Shown here: positions 29,755 to 63,411 of the stretch, piece after piece | How the letters are laid out: every line of letters starts with the position of its first letter | Numbering within the stretch: position 1 is the first letter of the stretch | Source of the DNA: Clostridia bacterium | Lineage (GTDB): Bacteria > Bacillota > Clostridia > Oscillospirales > Acutalibacteraceae | Reading direction: 5' to 3' | Assembly (NCBI GenBank): GCA_017516965.1 | Contig: JAFXAP010000008.1 | Location: forward strand, 186,001 to 250,000 | DNA: 64,000 bases | Notes under the pieces: model-generated | Databases searched by the model: none | The model's input: the letters and a program-made list of their open reading frames with translations, nothing else | What the model was told of the DNA's origin: nothing | Translations under genes and position numbers: made by a program

Positions 29755-29782
29755 GAATTTTTTGACATTTTTTTAAAATCTT

Positions 29783-29980
29783 TCGTTCCGCCTTGCCGTA
29801 ACGGCTTAATGATAACCTGAACTTAATTTCAGGTGGGTTTTCGCCAAACGGTTTCGCGCTCCCTTCTTCCGAACTCGGCACCGCCGCGGGAGGTCTGCAA
29901 ACCCGCCGTCTGAGCAGAAATCCCTTTTTATTATCTTGTAGGGTTATATAAGCCAACGATACACGCACAAGGCAGAACGT
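29783..29980 (-). ncRNA. 6S (SsrS)-like structured RNA, candidate
   Basis: About 195 bases on the minus strand fold into a closed rod. GTTCTGCCTTG (29978-29968) pairs with CAAGGCGGAAC (29795-29785); inside this GGCTTA..TAACC pairs with GGTTA..TAAGCC. There follow a large unpaired bubble containing a small CCTGAA/TTCAGG hairpin on its 3' side, and a long GC-rich terminal arm with CTCCC/GGGAG and CCGA/TCGG. This architecture, the length and the GAAAACCCACC segment fit Firmicute 6S RNA, which binds RNA polymerase. I could not run a covariance model, so another structured RNA remains possible. Confidence 0.55.
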
Positions 29981-29991
29981 AGCAATCGGTA

Positions 29992-57522: not shown

Positions 57523-57540
57523 ACAATAAAGCTTTACTTA

Positions 57541-57571
57541 AAATCCCAAAACCGTTTTGGTTTTGGGATTT
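57541..57571 (+). terminator. Intrinsic terminator of the foldase-like lipoprotein
   Basis: A 13-bp perfect stem (57541-57553 with 57559-57571) has loop GTTTT and is followed by TTTATTT. Confidence 0.9.
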
Positions 57572-57628
57572 TTTATTTGCAAAAATTGTTGGTACTATTC
57601 CTTTAAATACACAAAGAACATAAAATTA

Positions 57629-57657
57629 TTGCTAATTGATTTTTCTCGTGGTATAAT
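57629..57657 (+). promoter_or_regulatory. Promoter of the structured leader RNA/ligase
   Basis: TTGCTA (57629-57634) and TATAAT (57652-57657) with a 17-base spacer. The expected start near 57664 coincides with the first base of the leader's closing stem. Confidence 0.8.
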
Positions 57658-57663
57658 ACAAGT

Positions 57664-57881
57664 GCCAAACAAATTACATAAATTTAAGGAGGATTTTTAT
57701 ATTTTTAACACAAGGGGGTATTATACCCTTTTTTATTCATACAATAATTTGGTGAATTTGGCAAAAGCGCAAATTCCCCCAAGTTGTTGTATGGTAAATC
57801 CTCCACTTCTTGTAGTTTGTTTGGCGACAATTGGAGTTTGCGTTTTTCGGTGCGGGAACTTCGGTTGCCGCACTTTTTTTT
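57664..57881 (+). ncRNA. Highly structured RNA with three-way junction and intrinsic terminator, upstream of adenylate-forming ligase
   Basis: P1: 57664-57677 pairs with 57812-57825 over 14 bp with one G-U. P2: 57688-57696 pairs with 57796-57804 (9 bp). Inside lie P3, a small GGGTA/TACCC hairpin (57716-57728) followed by T6, and P4, a long arm where 57738-57752 pairs with 57779-57793 (15 bp, two G-U) capped by 57754-57760/57770-57776. A terminator (57850-57859 with 57864-57873, TTCG loop, T8) ends 14 bases before the ligase ATG. The G-U changes that keep pairing point to RNA. It may be a riboswitch/attenuator or an independent RNA; I recognise no family. Confidence 0.72.
57850..57881 (+). terminator. 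Intrinsic terminator within the ligase leader
   Basis: GTGCGGGAAC (57850-57859) pairs, with one mismatch, with GTTGCCGCAC (57864-57873) around TTCG, and eight T residues follow. The ligase ribosome binding site GGGGGA lies just downstream. Confidence 0.85.
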
Positions 57882-57895
57882 ATTGGGGGATTTAA

Positions 57896-59611
57896 ATGGA
57901 AGAAAAACAAATTACGGGCTATCCGTCAATAGACAAGCCTTGGTTAAAATACTATACTGAAGAAGCCATTAATGCTACTTTGCCCGAATGTTCTGTGTAT
58001 GATTATCTTGTAGAGTGCAACAAAAACCATTTGGATGATGTTGCAATAAACTACTTTGACCGAAAAATTACTTTTAGAGAGTTGTTTGACAACATTGAGA
58101 GAGCAACAAAGGGGTTTGCCTCTATTGGTCTTAATAAGGGTGATATTATTGTTATGGCAACAGTAACAACACCCGAAACGATATATAGTTTTTATGCCCT
58201 TAATCGTTTAGGTGTGGTCGCTAATATGGTTGACCCTCGTACAAGCACCGAAGGAATCAAAGACTATATTGAGGAAGTTAATGCAACCTGTGTTTTGACG
58301 ATTGATGTTGCTTTACCCAAAATTGAAAAAGCAATCATTGGAACAAATGTCAATCAAATTGTTGTCGTTTCTCCTGCCGACTCACTTGCACAACCCAAAA
58401 AACTACTTTTTAAGATTTTTAACCGTTCTCCAAAGTTGTCAGAGAAATGCCTTGTATGGCCCAAGATTTTGAAAAACAGCACCAATCAAACATTTACTAT
58501 TGCACCGTATGAGAAAGATGTTTGTTGTGCCATTGAGCATACAGGTGGTACTACAGGTATGCCAAAGGGTGTAATGCTCACAAATGACAATTTTAATGCT
58601 GCAACCTCACAAATTAAATATTCGCCATTGAGAATGGAAAGAAAAGATAGATTCTTGAATATTATGCCACCTTTTATTGCTTATGGTATGGTTTTGGGAA
58701 TCCATACAGCCCTCACTCACGGTTGGGAATCAATTTTAATTCCCAAGTTTGACCCTAAAGATTTTAGCGATTTGATTTTGAAATATCGCCCTTCGGGTAT
58801 AATGGGTGTACCTACATATTTTGAAGGCCTTATGGATGACCCGAAACTGAAAGGTGCAGACCTTTCCTGTATCAAGGTAGTTCTTGTTGGCGGTGATAAA
58901 ACACAGGTTGAGTTTGAAAAGCGAGTAAACACCTTCTTTGCAGAGCATAATGCCAACATCCATTTGAGCAAAGGTTATAGTATGACTGAAGCAAGTTCAA
59001 CCGCAACATTTGCCTTTGAAGAAATTAACAAACTCGGTAGCAATGGTATTCCTTTTACCGAAACAATCGTATCTGCATTTGAACCCGACACAGATAAGGA
59101 ATTAAAAGTCAATGAATCGGGAGAGATTTGCATTTTCACACCCACAATGATGCTTGGGTACTATGGAAAGCCCAACGAAACAAACAAGGTTTTGAAAAAG
59201 CATTCAGACGGCAGAATATGGATTCATTCGGGCGATTTAGGACACATTGATGAAGATGGTTGTGTTTACATTGATGGTCGCCTGAAAAGAATGATTATTC
59301 GCTTTGACGGATTTAAGGTATTTCCTCCATTCATTGAAAATGTCTTAACAACTCACAAGGCAGTTGAATCCTGCTGTGCAGTCGGCACTCCCGATAAATC
59401 TCATAGTCAAGGACAATTACCAATTGCTCATATCGTTTTAAAACCCGAATACAAAGGGAGAGAAACAGTGGTTGAATTTGAATTAGTAGAGTTATGCAAA
59501 AACGAACTTCCCGAATATGCACAACCCTCGGCATATAAGTTCCGTGAAACATTACCTGTAACACCCATTGGCAAAGTTGATTTTAAAGCACTTGAACAAG
59601 AGAATGATTAA
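57896..59611 (+). CDS. Class I adenylate-forming enzyme (acyl-CoA synthetase/AMP ligase type)
   Basis: The 571-residue ANL-superfamily enzyme activates a carboxylate as acyl-AMP. Motifs are the P-loop-like EHTGGTTGMPKGVMLT (A3), KGYSMTEASS (A5), HSGDLGHIDEDG (A7), DGRLKRMIIRFDGFKVFPPFIE (A8) and the C-terminal lysine in PIGKVDF (A10). Whether CoA, carrier protein or another acceptor follows is unknown. GGGGGA precedes the ATG. It is separated from upstream genes by the structured leader and from the integrative element by a terminator. Confidence 0.9.
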   Translation: MEEKQITGYPSIDKPWLKYYTEEAINATLPECSVYDYLVECNKNHLDDVAINYFDRKITFRELFDNIERATKGFASIGLNKGDIIVMATVTTPETIYSFYALNRLGVVANMVDPRTSTEGIKDYIEEVNATCVLTIDVALPKIEKAIIGTNVNQIVVVSPADSLAQPKKLLFKIFNRSPKLSEKCLVWPKILKNSTNQTFTIAPYEKDVCCAIEHTGGTTGMPKGVMLTNDNFNAATSQIKYSPLRMERKDRFLNIMPPFIAYGMVLGIHTALTHGWESILIPKFDPKDFSDLILKYRPSGIMGVPTYFEGLMDDPKLKGADLSCIKVVLVGGDKTQVEFEKRVNTFFAEHNANIHLSKGYSMTEASSTATFAFEEINKLGSNGIPFTETIVSAFEPDTDKELKVNESGEICIFTPTMMLGYYGKPNETNKVLKKHSDGRIWIHSGDLGHIDEDGCVYIDGRLKRMIIRFDGFKVFPPFIENVLTTHKAVESCCAVGTPDKSHSQGQLPIAHIVLKPEYKGRETVVEFELVELCKNELPEYAQPSAYKFRETLPVTPIGKVDFKALEQEND

Positions 59612-59921: not shown

Positions 59922-61055
59922 CTATTGCAATTTTAAGGAAATCAAGTCTGCAACCTTTGCCTTTGCACTGTCAAGAACATCTGCATACACATTCGCAGTT
60001 GTTGATACATCAGAATGACCGAGCAATTCAGAAACTATTTTCAAGTCGATACCGCTATTTATTAAAAGTGTGGCGTTGCAGTGCCTTAAACTATGTAATG
60101 TTATAAAGTCAAAGTCCGTACCTTTAACAAAACGCCTGAATTGTGTATTGAGTCCTGACCTGTCAACATAATTGCCGCTATCGGTTGTAAAGACCATTTC
60201 AGGATATTTATAATCTTTTCCGAGTTTTGCTATCTTTTCATCATTGTATTGTTTCTGCTCTAAAAAGATTTTTGCCAATATATCCGATAATGCAATATAT
60301 CTATTACTTGTTTTAGTTTTCGGCGGTTGTAACCAATGCTTACCGCCTACATCTGTTAGTGTGTTTTCAATGTGAATAGTTTTATTTTCAAAGTCTATAT
60401 CTTGCCAACGCAGAGCCAAACATTCACCCGAACGCATACCTGTATATAACAAAACTTTAATAATACGGTTGAACTGTGTGCTATCTTCAACCATTTTCAA
60501 TAAGTCTTTCGCTTGATGTTCATTAAGGAAAGGCTTTTTTTCTTTTGGTTGCTTTGCCTTTGGTAATATAACCGCTTTTGTGCAAGGTGTTTCTTTTATG
60601 AAACCCTGTTCAACAGCACGAGCGAAAATACTTTGAAGAATAACATATACTTTTCTGCAAGTCGCAGGGGCGTATGTGCGAGTCTTAAAAAAGGCGGTTA
60701 TCTTTGCAGGGGTAAAGTCTTTTAGTTTGATATTTCCGAGTTCGGGCAATAAGTGGTTTTTTATCTGACTTTCATAATTATATGCTGTAATCTCTTTTAG
60801 TTCATTTTTTGCATAGTTATCAATAAACCATTCAGCCATATCACAGAAACGCATATTTTCATTTAATGAAGTCATACCCTTGCATTTTCTTTCAAATTCA
60901 ATAGCGAATTCGTGAGCAAGTTTCTCAGCCTTTTTCGGTGTAGTATTTTCAGGTGGTTTATATGTGGTTGTTTTTCGTATCTTTTTACCGTTCACATCAA
61001 GACCAAGAGAAACGACAATCTGAAAAGTGTTTCCACGCTTATTTACTGTTGCCAC
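59922..61055 (-). CDS. int: Tyrosine recombinase/integrase
   Basis: The 377-residue site-specific recombinase has an N-terminal arm-binding domain, a SAM-like core-binding domain (about 70-165) and a catalytic domain with Arg in YTGMRSGE, Lys in PKTKTSNR, HSLRH (His and second Arg), LLGHSDV and nucleophile Tyr in TTANVYADV. It integrates and excises the element that begins near 59.65 kb. It is the type common to Gram-positive phages and Tn916-like elements. Its start overlaps the repressor gene by 17 bases. Confidence 0.95.
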   Translation of the reverse strand: MATVNKRGNTFQIVVSLGLDVNGKKIRKTTTYKPPENTTPKKAEKLAHEFAIEFERKCKGMTSLNENMRFCDMAEWFIDNYAKNELKEITAYNYESQIKNHLLPELGNIKLKDFTPAKITAFFKTRTYAPATCRKVYVILQSIFARAVEQGFIKETPCTKAVILPKAKQPKEKKPFLNEHQAKDLLKMVEDSTQFNRIIKVLLYTGMRSGECLALRWQDIDFENKTIHIENTLTDVGGKHWLQPPKTKTSNRYIALSDILAKIFLEQKQYNDEKIAKLGKDYKYPEMVFTTDSGNYVDRSGLNTQFRRFVKGTDFDFITLHSLRHCNATLLINSGIDLKIVSELLGHSDVSTTANVYADVLDSAKAKVADLISLKLQ

Positions 61056-61638
61056 TGTTTACGCCTGCCTTTTCTTTAAATAAATGAATTAATTTTAATT
61101 CAACAAAATCGCATATTTCATTTTCAAAACGGTTCATTTCTCCAAGTGATAGAACAACTGTTTGATTGTCTTTTCTGATTTTATATCCATTGTTCAATTC
61201 ATCAAAATAGTCTTGAATCGAACTTGCATTTGATAAATTTGGCGGTGTTATTTCGTAATTTGTTAACATAGCAAAAGCACATAGTCCAGAATACAACAAA
61301 TCGCCCTCTTTATTCATATTATCAATGGCACTATAAAATCGGGCAGCTTCCGTTTCATAATCTGTCTCTCCAAGTAAATAAGAAGCCTGCACGCCTAAAA
61401 CCTTTCCAAAAAGTCGAGCATATTCAGCTGATATTTGTCTTGTCCCATTTTCAATATAACTAACTTGCTTTTCATTTCGTGATTTTCCGTTATTTTCGGG
61501 AAGTGCCTCTACCTCCATTATAAGTTCTTCCTGTGTTAACCCCTTTTTCTCTCTACAAGCCCTCAATCTTTCACCACAAATTTTTTTCTTGTTTTCAGAG
61601 GTAACACTTTCAGTTAATGTTTTTGTTACTTTTCCCAT
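61039..61638 (-). CDS. XRE-family repressor of the element
   Basis: The 199-residue protein has an N-terminal helix-turn-helix of the XRE/Cro-CI type (ERLRACREKKGLTQEELI and KQVSYIENGTRQISAEYARLFGKVLG, about 20-90) and an uncharacterised C-terminal part, without RecA-type autocleavage motifs. The ATG at 61636-61638 follows TTGGAG by eight bases. It faces the small helix-turn-helix gene divergently across an operator-rich gap, so it likely controls lysogeny-like maintenance. Confidence 0.9.
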   Translation of the reverse strand: MGKVTKTLTESVTSENKKKICGERLRACREKKGLTQEELIMEVEALPENNGKSRNEKQVSYIENGTRQISAEYARLFGKVLGVQASYLLGETDYETEAARFYSAIDNMNKEGDLLYSGLCAFAMLTNYEITPPNLSNASSIQDYFDELNNGYKIRKDNQTVVLSLGEMNRFENEICDFVELKLIHLFKEKAGVNSGNSK

Positions 61639-61664
61639 TGTATCAACTCCAATATATGATATTT

Positions 61665-61741
61665 GTAACACAAACAAATGTAACCTTGTTGTTCTGTTTA
61701 CGTAACATTTATGTTACAATAAGTATACAACAACTTGTTGT
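61665..61741. promoter_or_regulatory. Operator region with GTAAC boxes and a second palindrome
   Basis: GTAAC/GTTAC boxes lie at 61665-61669, 61680-61684, 61702-61706 and 61713-61717; the last two form the palindrome GTAACATTTATGTTAC. A separate 15-base palindrome ACAACAACTTGTTGT lies at 61727-61741. On the minus strand GTTACA and TATCAT spaced 17 bases make a plausible repressor promoter overlapping the boxes. This is the layout of a divergent repressor/antirepressor switch. Confidence 0.7.
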
Positions 61742-61775
61742 AGATGTCAATAGTAAAATAAAAGGTGGTGAAAAA

Positions 61776-61982
61776 ATGAAGGCAAATAAAGATATTCGAG
61801 ATATGGTTGAAGAAAAAGGGTTTTGCCTGTGGGAACTTGCAGAAGCATTAAAATTAAGTAGTGATTCTGCGTTATCAAGAAAGCTTCGCCGTGAACTATC
61901 AAATGAAGAAAAGCAACTTATTTTCAAAACACTTGACCGAATGGTAGAGCAACGTTCGAACAAAGAACTCAAAAAGAAATAA
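61776..61982 (+). CDS. Small helix-turn-helix protein (Cro-like)
   Basis: The 68-residue protein (KDIRDMVEEKGFCLWELAEALKLSSDSALSRKLRRELS) fits a short lambda-repressor-like DNA-binding domain. ATG follows AAAAGGTGGTG by five bases; longer in-frame readings run through the operator and are rejected. It is the first rightward gene of the element and probably the counter-regulator. Confidence 0.8.
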   Translation: MKANKDIRDMVEEKGFCLWELAEALKLSSDSALSRKLRRELSNEEKQLIFKTLDRMVEQRSNKELKKK

Positions 61983-62003
61983 TAACATCGTGAAAGGATA
62001 TTT

Positions 62004-62198
62004 ATGAGCAAAACATTTTATACCGTGCGAGAGGTTGCACACACAGGAATATTAAGCGAATATGCTTTAAGGTTAATGCTGAAATCGGACAACCCTCCCC
62101 CACATATTAAAATTAACAAAAAGGTAAAGATAAACTATCCCCTTTTTATTGAATGGCTTGATATTGAAAGCAAAAAAGGCGGTGTGTTAATTGAGTGA
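62004..62198 (+). CDS. Excisionase-like small DNA-binding protein
   Basis: The 64-residue protein starts FYTVREVAHTGILSEYALRLML, a MerR/excisionase-like winged helix pattern, followed by the short wing IKINKKVKINYPLFIEWLD. AAAGGAT precedes the ATG. Its place between the regulator and the replication gene fits an excisionase (Xis) partner of the integrase. Confidence 0.75.
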   Translation: MSKTFYTVREVAHTGILSEYALRLMLKSDNPPPHIKINKKVKINYPLFIEWLDIESKKGGVLIE

Positions 62199-63411
62199 TA
62201 ACGAATATATAAATAAATTGCTCAATTATGGTATGAGTATTGAAGAACTTGAACACTACAAACAAAATGGTTTCACTATGCAAGAAGTATATGAAAGTTT
62301 CTTAAACGTCAAACGCATAGCAAAAACTGCTGCCGAATTCGGAGAAGATAACACCTCTTTTGTATGGACTCCGTATATACCTATCGGAGATTATACAGTT
62401 CTTATGGCTGACGGTGGCACAGGAAAAACTATTTTCTGCTGTGGTATTGCGGCGACAATAAGCCGTGGTGAATGTTTACCAAGTAATAGCACAATAAAAG
62501 AAAAGTCCACGCCTGCAAATACGCTTATTATATCGGCAGAAGATAGAGGCGAGTTGTTAAAAAAGAGACTTGTTTCTTCAGGTGCAGATTTGCACAAAGT
62601 CTATATATTGGACTGTATGGACTCCGAGGGAATGAATTTTACAAATGATTATGACGACTTTATGGAAACAATTAAGCGTTACAATCCTAAACTTGTAATA
62701 ATTGACCCGTGGCACGCTTTTTTGGGTGCTGACGTGGATATTAACCGAGTTAATGCTGTACGCCCTGTATTTCAAAGACTTGCAAATATGGCAAAAGTTT
62801 GTAATTGTGGTATGGTTCTTGTTTCTCACGTCAACAAAAGGGCACAGGGCGAAAACGCCAATAATGCCGCAACAGGTTCAACGGATTTTATAAACGCCGC
62901 TCGTTCTGCTATGCGTGTTATTTTCAACGATAATCCTACTGAAAAAGATACCCGAATTATTGTACACACAAAATCAAACTATGCAGAATTAGGTACATCA
63001 ATAAAATTCAGAATTACAAAAGACGGCGGCTGTCAATGGGCAGGTTTTAGTGATATAACAAGAAAAACGCTTGAAGATGCCGCAAGGTTTCACAAAACAC
63101 CAACGGAAATGCTTAACCAACAAAACGCCCAAGATACCACAAACTATGCACTGATAGAAGCAATTAAAGAAAAAGCAATCAAGGGAAAAATTGTAAATAT
63201 CAGTTATGAAGAAATGAAACAATCCAACGGTTCAGATATTTTCGGTATCAGCCAACCTAAACGAGCATTAGAAAGTGTAATCCCAAGTTTACAAGATTAT
63301 GGTATATCTATTCAGACAGGAAAAACAGTTAAATACAACGGCAGAACTCACAACGGTTTTAGTATTTATCAAAACGAAAGCATTGAAGACCTTGAGGCAG
63401 ATTTACCCTGA
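62191..63411 (+). CDS. RepA-like AAA ATPase (AAA_25), replication/DNA-binding
   Basis: The 406-residue protein has a Walker A DGGTGKT (about residues 74-80), Walker B PKLVIIDPWHAFL (about 170-182) and the VLVSHVNKRA sensor segment, the hallmarks of RecA-like hexameric RepA helicases of plasmids and phage islands. The C-terminal 120 residues look like a winged DNA-binding region. TTG is supported by GGCGGTG six bases upstream; it overlaps the stop of the excisionase-like gene. It probably drives replication of the excised element. Confidence 0.88.
   Translation: MSDNEYINKLLNYGMSIEELEHYKQNGFTMQEVYESFLNVKRIAKTAAEFGEDNTSFVWTPYIPIGDYTVLMADGGTGKTIFCCGIAATISRGECLPSNSTIKEKSTPANTLIISAEDRGELLKKRLVSSGADLHKVYILDCMDSEGMNFTNDYDDFMETIKRYNPKLVIIDPWHAFLGADVDINRVNAVRPVFQRLANMAKVCNCGMVLVSHVNKRAQGENANNAATGSTDFINAARSAMRVIFNDNPTEKDTRIIVHTKSNYAELGTSIKFRITKDGGCQWAGFSDITRKTLEDAARFHKTPTEMLNQQNAQDTTNYALIEAIKEKAIKGKIVNISYEEMKQSNGSDIFGISQPKRALESVIPSLQDYGISIQTGKTVKYNGRTHNGFSIYQNESIEDLEADLP

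Follow-up and report, generated by a model that had tools for sequence, protein, structure and literature searches.

The leader that precedes an adenylate-forming ligase gene in the window, by which we mean the whole 64,000-nucleotide stretch of DNA analysed here, is likely to be a cis-acting transcription attenuator, and most probably it is a riboswitch that represents an undescribed class. Comparison with its many relatives suggests that it belongs to a real and large family of transcription attenuators in Clostridia, apparently undescribed and probably a riboswitch class. The preliminary description of this DNA had proposed a novel riboswitch or attenuator, a proposal supported by the recurrence of the element, by covariation and by the competition between terminator and antiterminator. 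The conserved module reaches from an extended -10 promoter through a terminator and is placed before a ribosome binding site. Its parts in the window, and the gene behind it, are as follows.

57629..57657, + strand: promoter, with a -35-like TTGCTA at 57629, a 17-nt spacer and an extended -10 TATAAT at 57652-57657
57663..57678, + strand: 5′ strand of the closing stem P1 and probable transcript start; pairs with 57811-57826
57688..57696, + strand: 5′ strand of P2, a 9-bp stem with 57796-57804 (fold)
57712..57734, + strand: small side hairpin (57712-57732) ending in U6 (57729-57734) (fold); majority consensus in the family alignment A1 GGnnTAnTATACnCTTTTTT
57737..57794, + strand: long arm P4 with apical loop L4 (fold)
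57763..57777, + strand: L4 strand, in the tail pairing (pseudoknot) or part of the local hairpin 57754-57776
57796..57804, + strand: 3′ strand of P2 (fold)
57811..57826, + strand: 3′ strand of P1 (pairing and family alignment)
57830..57847, + strand: tail (switching strand), 57833-57847 pairing with L4 and 57830-57843 with the 5′ arm and loop of the terminator (swap tests)
57850..57873, + strand: intrinsic terminator hairpin with UUCG loop, of which 57852-57865 doubles as the 3′ strand of the antiterminator
57874..57881, + strand: T8 tract of the terminator (sequence)
57885..57889, + strand: Shine-Dalgarno sequence of the ligase gene (sequence)
57896..59611, + strand: AMP-binding (adenylate-forming) ligase gene, 571 aa, ATG at 57896 (Pfam)

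Folded as a whole, 57629-57895 reaches a minimum free energy of -91.8 kcal/mol against -57.1 +/- 4.3 for 200 dinucleotide shuffles (z = -8.0), none of which was as good, and the helices of the preliminary description (closing stem, 9-bp stem, small hairpin with T6, long arm, terminator with T8) are all present. Its placing of the transcription start on the first base of the closing stem also fits, since P1 begins at 57663, 5 bases after the -10 box, but the position that it gave for the start, 57629, is the beginning of the -35 box; the RNA proper begins near 57663, and the leader spans 57663-57881. A profile of 186 copies reads TGTGnTATAAT upstream of P1, at -16 to -6. Beyond the helices already described, a 15-bp pseudoknot joins 57763-57777 to 57833-57847 and an antiterminator joins 57830-57843 to 57852-57865, and the two use one common 3′ tail. 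The minimum free energy fold displays the antiterminator and lacks the terminator. On the 5′ side of the leader a terminator-like hairpin (57540-57572) lies behind the upstream gene. The ligase matches the Pfam families AMP-binding (5.7e-64) and AMP-binding_C (6.3e-15), and the best 25 of its 105 NCBIfam matches are all under their cut-offs.

The following mechanism would be consistent with these pairings. Transcription would start at P1, and the sensing domain would consist of P1, the apical loop L4 and an inner arm that varies between copies. Pairing of L4 with the tail in the pseudoknot would bar the tail from the 5′ arm of the terminator, so that the terminator forms and an RNA of about 219 nt is released (OFF). 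With L4 tied up in its local hairpin, by contrast, the tail would pair with the 5′ arm and loop of the terminator, and with this antiterminator formed RNA polymerase would read into the gene (ON). We infer that the pairings exclude each other in time, and likewise which of the two states is OFF. In the window the terminator (-14.9 kcal/mol) and the antiterminator (-14.1 kcal/mol) are near balance, as expected if the pseudoknot decides between them.

Covariation was assessed in the alignment A1, which holds 49 of 77 extracted copies; most of these were fetched by an exact 28-base pattern in the tail, and the conservation of the tail in A1 is therefore partly by construction. Over P1, the pseudoknot and the terminator together 98.5% of the cells are paired; shuffling lowers this to 91.4%, and slid controls do not exceed 48.3%. 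Twelve pairs have changes on both sides, and only 2 of these fall in the pseudoknot, where they amount to 2 of 15 pairs, compared with 6 of 13 pairs in P1 (49 sequences). The complementarity of the 15-bp pseudoknot of the window is retained in 99.2% of the A1 cells. P1 and L4 are conserved both in the 49 aligned long copies and in 42 short copies. Lack of covariation and lack of recurrence, which the preliminary description had regarded as fatal to a regulatory RNA, are both excluded.

The competing pairings were further assayed by exchanging strands between copies. Out of 268 matches 192 were kept by hand, leaving out those cut at the end of a locus, opposite-strand echoes and repeats of one record; removal of three without a callable terminator and of one duplicate gave 188 copies, of which 180 (terminator call below 34 nt) entered the swap tests. 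The native antiterminator is stronger than that formed with swapped tails (-13.0 versus -11.2 kcal/mol; z = -11.9, 145 unique copies), and this holds for the long type (z = -5.4) as well as the short type (z = -8.6) of the element, with 0 of 2000 permutations as good. For the pseudoknot with free choice of site the values are -18.1 versus -16.45 kcal/mol (z = -12.2, 180 copies). A fair swap of the pseudoknot is clear in the short type (z = -8.5, 45 copies, 0 of 2000 permutations as good) and not significant in the long type (z = -1.5; 136 of 2000 permutations as good; 90 of 135 copies), where both strands are nearly invariant. With an L4 strand that is picked by its own tail, which favours the native pairing, the long-type pseudoknot gives z = -6.7 and the pseudoknot comparison within genomes 35 of 45. 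The local L4 hairpin reaches z = -4.6 in the long and -5.5 in the short type. In L285, L262 and one unit of L176 the terminator loop deviates from CUUCGG, and the antiterminator helices are still long and uninterrupted. Terminator and competing antiterminator are both conserved across copies, and alignment and swaps together show a pattern of coevolution for P1, the antiterminator and the terminator, plus the pseudoknot of the short type. For the pseudoknot of the window, coevolution is carried over from the short type on account of homology and the 15-bp complementarity. Such coevolving pairings open the proposed mechanism to a direct test in vitro, for which one DNA template would do.

The long and short types were divided at a fixed length, the distance from P1 to the T-run being 179-245 nt in the long type, which includes the window copy, and 128-175 nt in the short type. 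Both open with P1 at the probable transcription start. By a crude test, 51 of 135 long-type copies contain a hairpin ending at a run of at least four T. The genome from which the window derives has three places by blastn and four by covariance models. Besides the window copy ahead of the ligase, L002 has a copy in front of a ligase paralogue and L003 one in front of a peptidoglycan-binding protein whose N-terminus is signal-like, and in L283 a shorter copy precedes a lipoprotein-like gene.

A covariance model built from 49 copies (R1) matched 37 of 60 relatives and, across the class, 53 of 293 genomes and 38 of 180 genera; since only 8 candidates were scored per genome in the class search, copy numbers there are lower bounds. 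A second model (R2) drew on 85 matches in which both types are represented, one of the 85 being an opposite-strand echo. Within the window's genus it matched 59 of 70 genomes, the largest number of copies in a single genome being 14. In a phylum sample searched at a stricter E-value with 6 candidates scored per genome, R2 matched 2 of 398 genomes, both of the window's genus; as the 15 genomes listed there from the same family, order or class are also without matches, this sample tells little about the edge of the class. The exact 28-base pattern occurs in at least 119 stretches, and among the 80 matches listed 79 bear the titles of metagenome-assembled genomes (Oscillospiraceae, Clostridia, Ruminococcus and similar labels), the remaining one being a named strain, Pumilibacter intestinalis. 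In the viral collection and among plasmids the exact long-type pattern was without matches, and the phage matches came down to one bacterial-looking record. This record, MT835503.1 (L286, 468-533), is labelled bacteriophage, is unannotated and unverified, and is probably bacterial in origin; in it the element precedes an EcoRI-type methylase, behind which come a GmrSD/HNH nuclease and then a MATE-like transporter (judged by eye). A methylase of this family also lies 3′ of the element in L132.

How the module is bounded was seen in 52 pairs of copies with at least 84% identity: homology starts no more than 24 nt before P1 in 38 of them and ends no more than 12 nt after the T-run in 44. Between the G019 and G007 loci a block of 318 bp at 92% identity is the sole match in 16-17 kb, whereas G007:C1 and G031:C25 share their upstream flank and differ in the downstream genes. 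These limits, together with the differing genes of the latter pair, suggest that promoter and switch are re-used before different genes, as they appear to be from the loci compared. Tandem units with a promoter and terminator of their own occur in L062, L176 (four), L177, L178 and L229. The four units of L176 (887-1667) have near-identical spacers and very different inner stems, a pattern in which the interior is fast-changing and the predicted pairing is kept. A colinear region in two species (L175 and L185) is 84.5% identical from upstream through the element and 98.4% identical over the ligase behind it, one of the two having a 55-aa gene in between; this suggests that the ligase gene following the switch was exchanged recently.

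Placement of the element relative to genes is regular. Of 179 copies whose downstream sequence is long enough, 110 have a start codon with a Shine-Dalgarno sequence of at least four bases no more than 40 nt from the T-run, compared with 3 of 128 in a control on the opposite side and strand; about 39% of copies lack this combination over that distance. An N-terminal hydrophobic segment was found in 79 of 128 downstream proteins of at least 100 aa versus 83 of 449 other ORFs (odds ratio 7), by regular expressions of our own and against background ORFs of the same loci, some perhaps spurious. Largely, then, the targets look exported, as far as can be predicted from their N-termini. Pfam was searched with 145 of 154 proteins (at most 130 nt away and at least 50 aa long; the first 148 minus three by hand). 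Among the 25 of 94 families listed, BspA-type leucine-rich repeats (18) and AMP-binding enzymes (8 of the 145 proteins) were followed by zinc ribbon (6), dockerin (5), SLH (2), CHAP (2) and EcoRI-type methylase (1), and the regulon also includes lipoproteins. Short cysteine-rich proteins of two recurring kinds lie 3′ of the element at nine loci (L047, L062, L071, L081, L177, L178, L221, L228, L266); two of them searched singly against Pfam, and three against NCBIfam, gave no match.

It had been suggested that the same leader be looked for before ligase homologues, and it was found at five of the six places with at least 38% identity to the window ligase, the query included, which makes the association a real one (compared by eye). 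These five, each with a same-strand upstream leader, are two in the window's own genome (G000) and one each in G034, G019 (with a small gene between) and G020; the sixth, in G035:C70, is a broken gene matched in two pieces and without leader. Among eight relatives at 32-36% identity, matched over most of the protein, seven are without leader and the eighth begins at the edge of a contig. In G035:C63 a relative matched in part likewise starts near such an edge, and a ligase of only 28% identity in G055 does have the leader. The preliminary description further proposed that the RNA senses a substrate or product of the ligase. As AMP-binding enzymes make up only 8 of the 145 targets, a ligase-specific ligand is unlikely and the general signal is something other than a ligase substrate; with ligases a minority among targets that mostly look exported, ligase-specific sensing was rejected as a general function.

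The targets are too varied to name the ligand. Distribution of the switch over many genera of Clostridia, in up to 14 copies per genome, would point to a common signal controlling the cell surface in mostly uncultured bacteria of gut and rumen, and the regulon, with its BspA-type surface proteins, lipoproteins, ligases, zinc ribbons and a DNA methylase, offers a route to that signal. A short ORF with a Shine-Dalgarno sequence, as a conserved leader peptide would require, was found in only 14 of 188 copies and at scattered positions, which leaves a leader-peptide attenuator unsupported. In 35 of 188 copies one frame is open from end to end of the element, compared with about 9 expected from mononucleotide shuffles, an excess that may come from the relatedness of the copies; a coding element is likewise unsupported. 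In the window, a frame of 112 codons (57557-57895, + strand) is open over the whole element. Since no conserved leader peptide was found and, in the genus, no LoaP, our first guess at the signal is a small molecule or ion.

Several readings of these data must be weighed. Quite possible, if short of probable, is a new riboswitch class in the form of a portable cassette of promoter and switch that responds to one signal other than c-di-GMP, uses the pseudoknot as an anti-antiterminator and precedes many unrelated genes for exported proteins and accessory functions, mostly in uncultured Clostridia of gut and rumen. An attenuator switched by an RNA-binding protein (an antiterminator or terminator protein) instead of a small molecule is rather unlikely: the large and varied regulon would suit it, as would the A/U-rich strands of L4 and tail, which are conserved in sequence beyond their pairing, but LoaP, the sole specific candidate tested, exceeds its cut-off in none of the genus's 70 genomes. 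LoaP achieves antitermination via leader RNA in Firmicutes, a feature which the present element has in common with its leaders, and a LoaP leader was rejected on the same count. It seems improbable that the copies regulate one another, released leaders pairing through L4 or tail with nascent leaders elsewhere so that surface genes are coordinated or mutually exclusive. Many copies per genome with common L4 and tail sequences, tandem units that each have a promoter and a terminator, and cross pairs as strong as -23.9 kcal/mol (in G025) would agree with such a network, but in 33 of 45 cases (14 genomes) the pseudoknot partner within a copy outdoes the average of the other copies in that genome, which favours pairing within one molecule, and genomes with a single match exist, such as G750, which is 98% complete. 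For the antiterminator the corresponding figure is 34 of 45 (14 genomes); own and foreign partners are equal in G028, G034 and G035, and in G031 the foreign antiterminator is better.

That the element is a mobile MITE-like repeat which folds by chance is very improbable. The preliminary description had taken many genomic copies as the mark of such a repeat, and many copies were indeed found, with near-identical modules in unrelated loci across species and the sharp homology limits described above, but compensatory changes in P1, terminator and antiterminator, and a strand and position fixed relative to the Shine-Dalgarno sequence ahead of ribosome binding sites, would not be expected of a MITE. 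A functional element could also have been dispersed as a regulatory cassette. A retron msr-msd or other stand-alone non-coding RNA, also envisaged in the preliminary description, is hardly credible in spite of inverted end repeats, an own promoter and terminator, and tandem units: no reverse transcriptase was found on the contigs that are home to the four copies of this genome (C5, C15 and C3), the two RVT_1 matches of the genome (85% complete) being on C12 and C1, while the copies precede unrelated genes, with a Shine-Dalgarno sequence and start codon behind a terminator whose antiterminator coevolves.

A riboswitch of an undescribed class, which we prefer, may be compared with known leaders. 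The preQ1, fluoride and ZTP riboswitches are 5′ leaders acting on termination in which a pseudoknot decides between antiterminator and terminator. Our element is like them in being a 5′ leader with such a pseudoknot, but it is longer, has P1 at the transcription start, precedes many unrelated targets and, in the loci scanned, has no Rfam match at gathering score. Riboswitches for c-di-GMP control a regulon of surface and exported proteins in Clostridia, and many copies per genome, a surface-type regulon and terminators are shared with them. In contrast, the element is without their Rfam match, and within the genus 41 of 59 genomes that carry it, many of them incomplete, have no GGDEF match, which makes c-di-GMP an unlikely signal; carriers lacking GGDEF include G011 (98% complete, 5 copies), G025 (97%, 5) and G741 (96%, 6). 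T-box leaders also have a terminator and an antiterminator, but the element has no T-box match in the Rfam scans, and no amino-acid pathway family is found among the 25 of 94 target families listed.

In a scan of the window no family of Rfam 15 reached its gathering score over the element. Relaxed scans of 6 and 12 loci (E up to 5 and 1, respectively) gave only sub-threshold, chance-like matches, a few of which overlap an element (e.g. SorX, MIR5638), plus a real tRNA beside one element. A survey of human microbiomes lists 3161 candidate structured RNAs, intergenic and uncharacterised (PMC8040213). Its main text contains no word beginning with oscillospir, ruminococc, christensenell or pseudoknot, and the element may be among its candidates, unnamed. 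No description of the element was found in the literature searched, and a bare list entry elsewhere is possible.

Two other features of the window were observed. Just 3′ of the ligase, genes for a tyrosine integrase, an HTH protein and an AAA-domain ATPase (59922-63411) have the look of an integrated mobile element adjoining the gene under putative control of the switch. At 29781-29981 on the minus strand an ordinary 6S RNA, over Rfam gathering scores, adjoins a tRNA gene.
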